Shown: positions 6,587 through 41,078 of the stretch, in pieces
Layout of the letters: each line of letters begins with the position of its first letter
How positions within the stretch are numbered: position 1 is the stretch's first letter
IMG/VR virus record: IMGVR_UViG_3300005289_000016
Location: 124,001 to 188,000 of that record
Strand: one strand, 5' to 3'
DNA length: 64,000 nucleotides
From: a virus
Program-made: the position numbers and the translations under genes
Notes under the pieces: model-generated
Seen by the model: only the letters and a program-made list of their open reading frames with translations
Told to the model about the DNA's origin: nothing
Database searches by the model: none

Positions 6587-6616
6587 GGGGAGGGCTTCGG
6601 CCCTCCCCTTATGCCG
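6587..6616 (+). terminator. TTCG-loop terminator followed by TTATGCCG
   Basis: A 9-bp perfect stem (GGGGAGGGC/GCCCTCCCC) closed by a TTCG tetraloop, then TTATGCCG at 6609-6616. The same octamer follows several other hairpins in this window. Confidence 0.85.
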
Positions 6617-29708: not shown

Positions 29709-31244
29709 TTACGGCTTGTAGTTTGTTGCACGAACGTAAAGGCGCTTGTTGTACGTGTAGTCACAGTGCGCTCCCCAGTTCCCGGCAAAGTCGGAAATTG
29801 GGCACATCCGGTTACTGCCTGCGGTACCTGCACCACCGCACGGACCACCTGGGCCTACCGTGGTGAAGAAGCCGAAGTTATCGGTTACTAAGGTATTGAG
29901 GTACCACCCATCACGTTGACCGTAGAGGTTCTTATTGCCGAGAGGGGTCCTGACTGGAACTGGCGTCCCTGATGTCCACAACGGGGTAGCTTGTGGAACC
30001 GTCTTACCGATCTGATACGCACCGTACAGCCCGATCCAACTTGGATTGTCGTGTTGCAGCATCCATTCGTCGGCGATGTTTTTCAGATGGCCTGACTTGA
30101 CGACAGGTCGATTCGTAGGGTCGGTGGTGAAACCTTGGATGTCGAGCCCTTTGACGATACACTCGCCGTAGAGCATCTGATCCGCCGATGACGGCACGGT
30201 CCCTGTCCAGTGGCCAATCTGAATCCAGTAGCCGCCATCCGTAACCATGTCGCAGTACGCTTTGAAGGTCGAGCCATCATCGCCGTAAACGTCGTAGATA
30301 CCGCTAACGCCAGCAACAGCGTTCTTGATACCACCGGTGGTAGGCGGCAAATCCCAACCTAACAGGTCGACTGTAGGGTAGATGTCCCGCATGTCGTAGA
30401 TGTTCTGGAAGTTAAACGTCGAACCTTCCAAGAAGAACCACGATCCAGCTTTTGCCCGCAACGTGAACGACTTGTTGACCTGATCGATCGGCCCGTCTTC
30501 GACATCAGCAGACGTCAGCGCCAAACCGTAGTTCGTGTTGAGCTGAGGAAGCACGTCGTAGATGGTATTCTTGCCAGTCAAGTCTAGCAGGGGTGCCAGC
30601 TTGCTGAACGGTTCACTGATCGGGAAGCGCTGGTAGTAGACGTACATCGACCCAGAGAAACCTGAGAGCGGTGTAGCAGTCACGCGCAGCTTGGTGTTCC
30701 AGTACAGCGGGTTGGTATTGACCTCAGGCAAGCCTGGAATCAACATGGCTGATGTGAAAGCAAACCCGTTCATCTGGTTGATGATCTGGAGCAATGTTGG
30801 CCAAGCAACGAGACGGTAATCTGGAGCCGAGTTATCGATCTCCAGATATTGCAGCCGCACAGTGGAGAGGTTGATGGAGTCGCGTGGACGCACCAAGACC
30901 TGTGTGGTCATCCGACGCAAACTGGTCGGACTTGCAGCGTCTTCAATGAACTGTGCTCGAACGCCGCGCAGGTTGGCCGGATTCTTTTCGATCACCAGGA
31001 ACTGTGTAGTGACTCGCCGCAACGAAGTTGGGTTACGGTAGTCTTCTGTAAACTGTGCACGCACAGATTTCAGGCTCACAGGGTCCCTGGCGATCGTCAG
31101 GATCTGGCCAGTCAGCCTACGGACACCCGTAGGACTTGCAGCATCTTCCAGTGTTTGAAGACGTACGTCTCGCAGCCGAGCCGGCGAATCATCGGGGACC
31201 AGGTATTGAACCCGGACGGACCTCAGGTTAGCGGCATCGGCCAT
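29709..31244 (-). CDS. Virion protein with eight 17-residue repeats and a fibrinogen-like C-terminal domain, 511 aa
   Basis: Residues 6-141 are eight tandem 17-residue units of the form xLRxVRxQxLxxxxxPx, alternating between two subtypes (34-residue super-period). Residues about 145-300 carry the repeated module of this gene block. From about 305, GIYDVYGDDG, STFKAYCDM and DGGYWIQIGHW match the start of fibrinogen-related or intelectin-type domains, with Cys and Trp spaced as there. The rest is Gly/Asn/Trp-rich (to 511). Such domains bind sugars or acetyl groups, so a receptor-binding role is likely. GGAGCC precedes the ATG. Confidence 0.83.
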   Translation of the reverse strand: MADAANLRSVRVQYLVPDDSPARLRDVRLQTLEDAASPTGVRRLTGQILTIARDPVSLKSVRAQFTEDYRNPTSLRRVTTQFLVIEKNPANLRGVRAQFIEDAASPTSLRRMTTQVLVRPRDSINLSTVRLQYLEIDNSAPDYRLVAWPTLLQIINQMNGFAFTSAMLIPGLPEVNTNPLYWNTKLRVTATPLSGFSGSMYVYYQRFPISEPFSKLAPLLDLTGKNTIYDVLPQLNTNYGLALTSADVEDGPIDQVNKSFTLRAKAGSWFFLEGSTFNFQNIYDMRDIYPTVDLLGWDLPPTTGGIKNAVAGVSGIYDVYGDDGSTFKAYCDMVTDGGYWIQIGHWTGTVPSSADQMLYGECIVKGLDIQGFTTDPTNRPVVKSGHLKNIADEWMLQHDNPSWIGLYGAYQIGKTVPQATPLWTSGTPVPVRTPLGNKNLYGQRDGWYLNTLVTDNFGFFTTVGPGGPCGGAGTAGSNRMCPISDFAGNWGAHCDYTYNKRLYVRATNYKP

Positions 31245-38388: not shown

Positions 38389-39240
38389 TCACTGTGGTTC
38401 GGCGAACGGATCGACCGGCTCGCTGAAGTGGATGATCAGATCGCCCGTGATGCCGTAGGCGTTGTCATGATCCAAACGCACTTGCAGGCCGTAGTCGTAG
38501 CTGCTGTTGAACAGCCCGTTGTCCGCTGTGGAACCCGCCGCCAAGATCTGAGCACCTTGCAGGCTGTACTCGGCATAACCAGTGAATGCCCAAGCATCAC
38601 CCGTCACATCGGTCAAGATCGTGGCCAGTTCCTGAGGAATGGCTTGACCGACCGTCAAGGTCTTCAGGTACGCCACGTGCTCGGAGAAGTTACGCCAGTA
38701 GCTGTACATCTGCGCAAATGGCAGCGTTGCATATGGCGTTGGATAATCCAGACCAGGCAATGCCGTAACAGTCAGGTAGTTCTCCAGTGGGATCTCGCCT
38801 TGGGACACGGACACCGACACAGTGCCGATCCAACCCAAGCTACTTGGTTCAGCAGTCAGCTGTACGGTCTTGTAGTCAGAAAGGTCTTCAGCATCCACCA
38901 GCACCACATCTGTGGTTTCGAGGTTGGTACCGAACCGCGCATTCAGGAAAGGCAGCAGGTCGTGTGAGTTCGTCACACTCGGTGCTTTCAACGTCAGCGT
39001 GACCAGCTTGGCCAAGTCGTCCAGCTTCAGGCGGTTGTAGAAGATGTCCACATCGCCTTGGTACGGAGCCGCTGTGTTATTCGCCCGGATGGTTACGTGC
39101 GAGTTGTGATTGGGGTGTTGACCGGTCTGGTTCAACTGGGGATTGATGAAATCATAATCCTCAGGGTCCAGTACGATCCCGCCGTTATTGCTCCCCACGA
39201 CATTCAAGAGTGTCGTGACGGGGTCTTTATAAAGAGACAT
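38389..39240 (-). CDS. Virion structural-type protein, repeated-module family, 283 aa
   Basis: Carries VTIRANNTAAPYQGDVDIFYNRLKL, LNARFGTNLETTDVVLVDA, LTAEPSSLGWIGTVSVSV, LPGLDYPTPY and the end GDLIIHFSEPVDP, with His-Phe where other members have His-Tyr. Same layout and length class as the member at 35634. Confidence 0.82.
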   Translation of the reverse strand: MSLYKDPVTTLLNVVGSNNGGIVLDPEDYDFINPQLNQTGQHPNHNSHVTIRANNTAAPYQGDVDIFYNRLKLDDLAKLVTLTLKAPSVTNSHDLLPFLNARFGTNLETTDVVLVDAEDLSDYKTVQLTAEPSSLGWIGTVSVSVSQGEIPLENYLTVTALPGLDYPTPYATLPFAQMYSYWRNFSEHVAYLKTLTVGQAIPQELATILTDVTGDAWAFTGYAEYSLQGAQILAAGSTADNGLFNSSYDYGLQVRLDHDNAYGITGDLIIHFSEPVDPFAEPQ

Positions 39241-40169: not shown

Positions 40170-40685
40170 TTAGGACAGGCTGAGGGTGAGACCGTCGAGG
40201 ACCTTGGTGGTCACGGCGGTGTTCAGATCCTGGTCAGCCTGCTGGATGGTGATGACTACTTGACCACGGTAAGCGAACGAGCCCGCTGCGGCGATCAGGG
40301 TGAACTGCTGAGGAGTGCTGGTCAGATCGCCCGGCAGGGTCAGGTCCGAACGCACGTCGTCCAGTTGCAGGTTGGAGCCGTAGAACGTGTTGAAGCCGTC
40401 CAGGATGTGCTGGATGGTGACGTCACCTTCTACCTGAATCTGAGAAGGGATCTGGATCTCGAAGTCTGCCAAGTTGATCCGGTTGTAGAGGATCGTGGCA
40501 GTGTTCTTGAAGCCTTTACCCGGGATACCGGTCATCACCAATTCGGTGTTACGCTGTGGGGTTTCGCCCGATGCAGCGACTGGTTCACCGAAGCTGACCT
40601 TCTCGAAAGTCAGGTTAAGACCTGGGTTCTTCTCGTTGACCAGGGCGAGTACCTGGTCCTTTGAAAGCAGGGAAATGTCAGACAT
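40170..40685 (-). CDS. Virion structural-type protein, repeated-module family, 171 aa
   Basis: First gene of the minus-strand block. One module only: VLALVNEKNPGLNLTFEKVSFGEP, MTGIPGKGFKNTATILYNRINL, YGSNLQLDDVRSDL, LIAAAGSFAYRGQVVI. It resembles the 182-aa gene at the other end of the block in length and in lacking the C-terminal third. Start ATG 40685 is taken. A GTG at 40724 would add 13 residues. The 76-base gap after it is larger than usual for the operon. Confidence 0.8.
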   Translation of the reverse strand: MSDISLLSKDQVLALVNEKNPGLNLTFEKVSFGEPVAASGETPQRNTELVMTGIPGKGFKNTATILYNRINLADFEIQIPSQIQVEGDVTIQHILDGFNTFYGSNLQLDDVRSDLTLPGDLTSTPQQFTLIAAAGSFAYRGQVVITIQQADQDLNTAVTTKVLDGLTLSLS

Positions 40686-40820
40686 GTCTTGATACCCGAA
40701 GTGGATTTGAAGAGCGGCTGACACTCGATAAATCGAGATGAGTTAAAGAGAGCAGCTACACATCATTTGACCACTCAAGATCCCGTAGATCTCTATAAAA
40801 GATATAAAGCAAATAAGGAA

Positions 40821-40846
40821 GGGATACAGGCCTTGGCCTGTATCCC
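40821..40846. terminator. 12-bp palindromic hairpin in the divergent gap
   Basis: A perfect 12-bp stem (GGGATACAGGCC with GGCCTGTATCCC) with loop TT, in the gap between the minus-strand block and the plus-strand non-coding RNA region. On the minus strand it is followed by TTCCTTATTTGC, on the plus strand by CTGTTTATAG. It may insulate the two units. Minus-strand promoter sequences (TTTATATC, TTTTATAGAG in minus sense) lie beside it at about 40793-40812. Confidence 0.6.
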
Positions 40847-40863
40847 CTGTTTATAGTGGATTT

Positions 40864-40887
40864 GATTTTACTCAAACCATACATTAC
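40864..40887 (+). promoter_or_regulatory. Putative phage promoter, TACATTAT class
   Basis: GATTTTACTCAAACCA then TACATTAC (40880-40887). Same class as the elements at 17418 and 50070. No coding sequence starts within 200 bases, so the transcript would begin with the structured segment 40927-41078. Confidence 0.5.
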
Positions 40888-40926
40888 TCTCGTAACCAAA
40901 AACCAATAATCGAAATCCTATTGTAT

Positions 40927-41078
40927 GTACAGGCAGTAGATACTGTCAGGTGAGGGGGTGATCCAGCACGAGCGTTTAACCCGAAACGGTTGAGCATCGA
41001 CGGGAGTCCGAAGCATACGTTTCAACGGCGCCTGTACCGGGCAGCATGGGCTCAAACTCATGCTGCCCATTTATGCCG
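40927..41078 (+). ncRNA. Putative structured non-coding RNA or leader RNA with its own terminator
   Basis: No credible ORF is present. GTACAGGC (40927-40934) is perfectly complementary to GCCTGTAC (41030-41037) and would close a domain of about 110 bases. Inside are a CGTTT/AAACG hairpin (40973-40988) and a small CAGT/ACTG hairpin (40934-40945, competing by one base). The closing stem abuts a 10-bp terminator hairpin at 41039-41068, followed by TTATGCCG. A TACATTAC element lies 40 bases upstream. Not a tRNA (no T-loop motif), and no known riboswitch class was recognised. It may be a free small RNA or a leader of the 51-aa gene. Confidence 0.5.
41039..41078 (+). terminator. Terminator hairpin followed by TTATGCCG
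   Basis: GGGCAGCATG pairs with CATGCTGCCC across a 10-base loop. TTATGCCG follows at 41071-41078, the exact recurring octamer. Confidence 0.75.

Follow-up and report, generated by a model that had tools for sequence, protein, structure and literature searches.

Introduction

6S RNA is a decoy of RNA polymerase. The jumbo phage phiKZ serves as a model for nucleus-forming jumbo phages, and dRNA-seq and long-read transcriptome studies of it reportedly exist. Grad-seq revealed two noncoding RNAs during phiKZ infection, one in the PHIKZ298 3' UTR and one in the p40 5' UTR, as given in the part of that report drawn on here (PMC8545117). An archaeal ribosome-associated noncoding RNA, val-tRF, is described in the excerpt of its study used here as blocking mRNA on the 30S subunit (PMC11009984). 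According to similarly partial sources, removal of the anti-Shine-Dalgarno sequence (anti-SD) by a toxin almost abolishes protein synthesis (PMC12274833), and in Bacteroidia the anti-SD is masked by bS21, bS18 and bS6 (PMC9976891). The toxin effect and the masking in Bacteroidia together indicate that the anti-SD is a real control point. Here we describe a small, structured RNA found in phiKZ-like jumbo phages and having a nearly invariant segment that is complementary to this part of 16S rRNA.

Results

A small-RNA gene between virion-protein and ligase blocks

The window, which is the whole stretch of 64,000 nucleotides analysed, is part of a 276-kb virus record that holds one copy of the RNA gene. 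A sequence-only reading had proposed a promoter-like element, a discrete noncoding RNA of about 150 nt and a terminator at the divergence between a minus-strand structural block and a ligase operon. All the sequence letters that it quoted were present at the RNA locus, and the location was borne out by minus-strand virion-protein paralogues (phrog_1037) on one side and a plus-strand NAD-dependent DNA ligase block on the other. The features of the locus, in window coordinates, are as follows.

40919-40926 (+): promoter-like octamer TATTGTAT, AT-rich and conserved, immediately before the RNA 5' end
40927-41078 (+): small-RNA gene, structured, conserved in phiKZ-like jumbo phages
40927-41037 (+): structured RNA body with helices P1-P4 (covariance-model matches, covariation)
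40927-40932 and 41032-41037 (+): P1, GTACAG pairing with CTGTAC (covariation)
40933-40946 (+): P2, hairpin GCAGT-AGAT-ACTGT (covariation)
40951-40967 (+): 17-nt arm TGAGGGGGTGATCCAGC, complement of 16S rRNA 1526-1542, with the invariant core at 40953-40966
40983-41023 (+): P3, GAAACG (40983-40988) pairing with CGTTTC (41018-41023) (covariation)
40999-41008 (+): P4, GAC-GGGA-GTC, with a GNRA-type loop (covariation)
41039-41078 (+): terminator-like hairpin followed by ATTTATGCCG, a putative termination site

The minus-strand block contains several phrog_1037 virion structural paralogues, at 29709-31244 (-), 38389-39240 (-) and 40170-40724 (-). The divergent gap holds a perfect hairpin, GGGATACAGGCC-TTGGCCTGTATCCC, followed by CTGTTTATAGTGG (40819-40860); locus L005 has another stem with the same flank, and this hairpin is possibly the terminator or leader of the minus-strand virion operon.

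Distribution among jumbo phages

The RNA was matched by covariance model in 28 loci, 27 of them distinct, including those of phiKZ, PhiPA3, PA1C, 201phi2-1, Noxifer, Psa21 and pPa_SNUABM_DT01. These form the final alignment, A7 (28 rows, 27 distinct), in which many rows are close kin and row counts are therefore not independent events. An IMG/VR search with the ligase yielded 11 loci. In 10 of them, of which L010 is truncated at the 5' end, the RNA element lies upstream of the ligase at a distance of about 3 kb; the remaining locus, the 5.2-kb contig L012, starts about where the element would be expected. By blastn, the copy in the Pseudomonas phage pPa_SNUABM_DT01 showed 88% identity over 128 bases, whereas matches across the 8 kb around it averaged 72%. 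The PhiPA3 copy was reached by a gapped pattern search, whose 46 stretches were judged by eye as 15 with the RNA and 31 without it. With the PhiPA3 copy as query, blastn led to phiKZ, PA1C, HPP-Temi, 201phi2-1 and Viktualia, considering the best 40 of 88 records and inspecting six; Listeria was among the weaker matches. The first covariance model (seven sequences, four helices) gave 23 matches in 25 sources, phiKZ among them. The second (R2), run on 22 whole records, found a match in 11, including Noxifer and RVTF4, with OBP marginal, while its locus scan took in 40 loci, leaving out pattern matches judged non-family, duplicates and stubs. Copies from Psa21 and D6 were added by blastn.

All confirmed isolates carrying the RNA are Pseudomonas phages. 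The phiKZ copy lies at 212,852-212,971, between PHIKZ203 and PHIKZ204, and p58 (PHIKZ204.1) adjoins it. A gene for an SNF2/DEAD-like helicase (PHIKZ203 homologue) adjoins the RNA gene in phiKZ, PhiPA3, PA1C, HPP-Temi, Psa21, D6 and Noxifer, and lies close by in 201phi2-1 and Viktualia (neighbourhood loci L060, L061, L062, L063, L064, L065, L110, L111 and L121).

At E < 0.1, under strict filters that distant copies may escape, 12 of the 14 other jumbo phages searched gave no match to the RNA (SPN3US, Machina, FLC9, pVa-21, Goslar, Moabite, Ea35-70, PCH45, LucasX, VP4B, OBP and EL). The OBP match was rejected (E 0.30 with R2 and 0.137 with R3) and resembles coding sequence; matches in Machina (E 0.16) and LucasX (E 0.21) and weak second and third matches in G003 (L092, L093) were also rejected. 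Locus L003, a 17-base match, gave no score by nhmmer or R2, and L106, L107, L108, L109, L112, L117, L119, L120, L094, L095 and L105 gave no R2 score. L109 is cut at a contig end, and its R3 match covers 57 bases only (E 6e-4). A pattern scan of a bacterial and archaeal genome collection found no copy.

Goslar, an Escherichia jumbo phage, has TAGGAGGTGATCC in a foldable stretch (L095 near 1502 (-), that is 87,361-87,373 (-)), followed by a hairpin and TTTATGCCG. Judged by its letters, this stretch is a candidate analogue of the RNA in an E. coli jumbo phage; it received no R2 or R3 score and had no near relatives in the phage collection.

Covariation supports the fold

Folding of the element together with its terminator gave z = -3.95, and folding of the element alone gave z = -2.02. 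In the final alignment, 94.3% of cells were paired, and 18 of 20 pairs were changed on both sides with pairing kept (119 cells), so that the covariation across related phages proposed as a check by the sequence-only reading was indeed found. The covariation score was 0.625, compared with 0.198 for shuffles, none of 500 of which scored as high, and 0.041-0.066 for slid structures, whose lower scores are partly due to the alignment having been fitted to the proposed structure. P1, for instance, reads GUACAG/CUGUAC in the window, AGCAAG/CUUGCU in phiKZ and GACAAG/CUUGUC in RVTF4, and the P4 stem varies while its GNRA-type loop persists in most rows. A first RNAalifold run, on alignment A1, showed no pair with changes on both sides. 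When all groups were aligned together with plain MAFFT, the first half of the RNA was mis-aligned, and structure-guided alignments, which are biased toward the model's structure, were used for this reason. The closing stem previously drawn from GTACAGGC (40927-40934) and GCCTGTAC (41030-41037), 103 bases apart, is real, with compensatory changes in relatives (100% of P1 cells are paired, and both partners have changed in 5 of the 6 pairs), but is better drawn as P1 stacked on the hairpin P2. These results show that the RNA is a conserved structured RNA with compensatory base changes in its helices.

Known RNA classes and coding potential

Rfam 15 gave no match at gathering score in the window or in the loci of five members, so that no family explains the RNA; at a permissive E-value the only match was sR32, at 8.1 bits (gathering 40) and on the opposite strand. 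ARAGORN found 0 tRNA or tmRNA genes in the window, in agreement with the earlier statement that no tRNA or known class was recognised. Searches of the PMC library, outside which lie most subscription papers and all preprints, turned up no description of the RNA. The RNA contains no conserved reading frame: a coding reading of its internal GTG (GUG) frame was rejected, as the copies share only VIQ, after which length and sequence vary, and the frame runs for 4 to at least 25 codons before a stop. Small hypothetical proteins are annotated across the RNA in DT01, Viktualia and HPP-Temi (MW735835 229921-230043 (-); PV037725 5522-5611; PP968062 92645-92734 and 92832-92927), and these ORFs are probably spurious. 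Conservation, covariation, the hairpin found after 28 of 28 copies, and the lack of a conserved frame and of an Rfam match all support a discrete noncoding RNA of about 150 nt.

The 5' element and the terminator

In all 13 upstream regions compared, TATTGTAT or a close variant lies directly 5' of P1, and the phages on the phiKZ side have 5' elements of the AATGATAT, AATACTAT and GATAATAT types. In phiKZ, AATGATATAG adjoins the expected 5' end of the RNA (212,852-212,971). We regard the octamer as a putative promoter. The promoter-like TACATTAC singled out by the sequence-only reading is present at 40880-40887 but is not conserved, occurring in just 3 of the 13 upstream regions (window, L006 and L007), and is probably not the RNA's own promoter.

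The 10-bp terminator stem of that reading was found at 41039-41048 and 41059-41068, followed by ATTTATGCCG at 41069-41078. A stem of at least 8 beside a TATG-like motif occurs within 140 bases downstream of all 28 copies, a raw count with no random baseline; for L064, the script did not pick the obvious stem. Of the 8 TTATGCC occurrences in the window, 6 are preceded by a stem of at least 9; the same holds for 6.9% of random positions and, among heptamers with one mismatch, for 3 of 42. Given this enrichment after stems, hairpin-TTATGCC looks like a terminator signature of the phage group. It occurs without a T run at 6609, 28984 (-), 41071, 41284, 50656 and 56779 of the window, and also in L006, L007, L011 and phiKZ. 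Past the RNA's terminator, TATATTAC or TATATTA is found in L060, L087, L110, L111, L113 and L114. These motifs resemble what we take to be the phiKZ early promoter motif, which makes the RNA and the next gene look separately transcribed.

An arm complementary to the 3' tail of 16S rRNA

The earlier observation is right but understated, as complementarity to 16S rRNA, the main point of the locus, was absent from it. Between P2 and P3, all 28 rows carry a nearly invariant core, AGG[A/G]GGUGAUCCAG, which is the complement of the 16S rRNA 3' end, that is, of the anti-SD tail. Contiguous pairs with the E. coli 16S tail number 17 in the window RNA (1526-1542, ending exactly at the mature 3' terminus), 21 in phiKZ and 18 in PhiPA3. 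With the window and phiKZ RNAs, 17 pairs with the last 30 nt of 16S were reached by 0 of 4000 dinucleotide shuffles. Over the whole 16S, with G.U allowed, runs of at least 17 occurred in 4 of 300 shuffles, which means that the rarity lies in the place and not in length alone, and that what carries the argument is the place, the invariance and the variation that keeps pairing intact.

The Pseudomonas 16S tail was GCGGCTGGATCACCTCCTTA in 80 of 80 sequences among the rRNA matches listed (titles mostly Pseudomonas, plus Stutzerimonas and one Pusillimonas). In 28 of 28 RNAs, pairing with this tail extends over the 14-nt core and the base that follows; conserved target complementarity, one mark of a trans-acting base-pairing sRNA, is thus found in every row through the core. 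Core position 4 is G or A, both pairing opposite U; the site just after the core is C or U, both pairing opposite G; and the site just before it is A or G opposite U, with C in Noxifer as the sole exception. In 22 of 28 rows the anti-SD core has a G.U pair at its centre (GGGGG, not GGAGG); the A that gives a full Watson-Crick pair is present in Noxifer, RVTF4, D6, Psa21, L113 and L114. The base facing the terminal 16S A is U in 23 rows and C in 5, and only 6 of 28 RNAs could also pair with the first base of the trailer, indicating that the RNA matches the mature 16S end. Predicted energies of the duplex with the final 20 nt of E. coli 16S ranged from -29.8 to -35.8 kcal/mol, and in unconstrained predicted folds the core was only partly unpaired (mean 0.30-0.59). 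Second complementarities, to 23S and to 16S 1083-1095, were rejected, being of chance length and not common to the seven RNAs tested.

Discussion

Taken with the conserved structure, the complementarity makes it rather probable that the RNA would capture the 30S subunit via the anti-SD tail and reprogram initiation. The bolder proposal is a viral RNA decoy of the ribosome, in which 30S capture via the anti-SD tail would rewire mRNA choice, an RNA-only takeover of initiation; on the letters of the RNA and its relatives, the chances of this seem to us evenly balanced. We know of no counterpart to such an RNA-only viral takeover of translation initiation. In the decoy reading, the RNA would be transcribed from the AT-rich element at its own 5' end and the transcript stopped at hairpin-TTATGCC. 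On mature 30S subunits its arm would base-pair with the tail and mask the anti-SD, the RNA acting as an untranslated decoy mRNA leader, with a strong SD-like strand between helices and no start codon in evident use. Free 30S subunits with occupied tails would be withdrawn from host SD-dependent initiation, or initiation would be biased to phage mRNAs, and the folded body may serve stability or protein binding.

The mid-core G.U of 22 of 28 rows, the only partly unpaired core in the predicted folds and the absence from 12 of 14 other jumbo phages at E < 0.1 count against the decoy reading. Of 24 genes in a phiKZ stretch, 18 had an SD match of 4 or more, as did 15 of 21 ORFs of the window, compared with 0.38 and 0.42 for random windows. 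Since phage genes use modest SDs, blocking would also hit phage mRNAs if these are not spared by timing, amount or location, and the sparing of phage mRNAs is the weakest step of the decoy reading.

Other functions can be imagined for the same arm. The conserved folded body with its GNRA-type hairpin around a conserved arm, and the helicase gene alongside in several phages, would suit a guide or tether, whose body would bind a phage protein and whose arm would lead that protein to the 30S 3' end in order to modify, cut or place ribosomes; we consider this unlikely, as the helicase gene does not adjoin among the window phage's annotated genes examined, and the synteny may only reflect genome order. 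It also seems improbable that the RNA pairs with the 16S tail as a shield against host anti-phage toxins or nucleases or against decay of the 30S 3' end. Pairing spans the whole tail to its last base and anti-SD-cutting toxins exist (PMC12274833; RelE1, PMC12620021; both as far as the portions used here extend), but the cutters met with are for Mycobacterium only, and a paired tail should likewise fail in SD initiation.

The core might serve otherwise, in protein binding, a tertiary contact or pairing with another RNA target, with the 16S match a coincidence. Invariance by itself names no target, and the kept mid-core G.U (22 of 28 rows) would fit such a role; however, the tail match was equalled by 0 of 4000 shuffles and stops at the rRNA's last base, Noxifer, RVTF4, D6, Psa21, L113 and L114 have the full Watson-Crick A, and the core's complement occurs elsewhere in the window only on the RNA's own opposite strand, all of which leaves coincidence a small chance. 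Finally, a very strong SD-like sequence with a GUG inside the RNA is what a translated leader or ribosome-recruiting 5' UTR of the next gene would have. We regard this as very improbable, given a GUG frame in which the copies share only VIQ and whose length ranges from 4 to at least 25 codons, the terminator-like hairpin after 28 of 28 copies, neighbouring genes that vary among phages, and, in phiKZ, an TATATTAC element, presumably a promoter motif, between the RNA and PHIKZ204.

With 30S capture as the preferred reading, an RNA that is common to phiKZ, PhiPA3, 201phi2-1, Noxifer, Psa21 and their relatives and that matches the 16S 3' tail is a directly testable candidate for host-translation takeover, and a virus may in this way steer protein production with RNA. 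Should the RNA bind, it would be one of few natural RNAs directed at the anti-SD, would offer a means of tuning SD-dependent initiation and would give Rfam a new family.

Judged by its sequence features, the RNA would be filed as a new family, decoy-like or base-pairing-sRNA-like with an unusual target, and no membership of a named class is claimed. As with 6S RNA, a structured RNA would capture a core machine by mimicking its natural substrate; unlike 6S RNA, the phage RNA is viral and has no Rfam match, and its target would be the 30S tail, reached by base pairing, rather than RNA polymerase. The two Grad-seq RNAs are likewise noncoding RNAs of phiKZ but, in the part of that report drawn on (PMC8545117), are located elsewhere, whereas the RNA described here sits between PHIKZ203 and PHIKZ204. 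With val-tRF the RNA shares the proposed action of a small RNA on the 30S subunit in competition with mRNA (PMC11009984, as excerpted); val-tRF is a tRNA fragment at the decoding site, whereas the phage RNA has a dedicated gene and an arm for the 16S 3' tail, to which it is predicted to bind. The masking by bS21, bS18 and bS6 in Bacteroidia, as presented in the extract used (PMC9976891), would be alike in that the same site is disabled and mRNA choice altered, with a host protein pocket as the means there and a viral RNA here.
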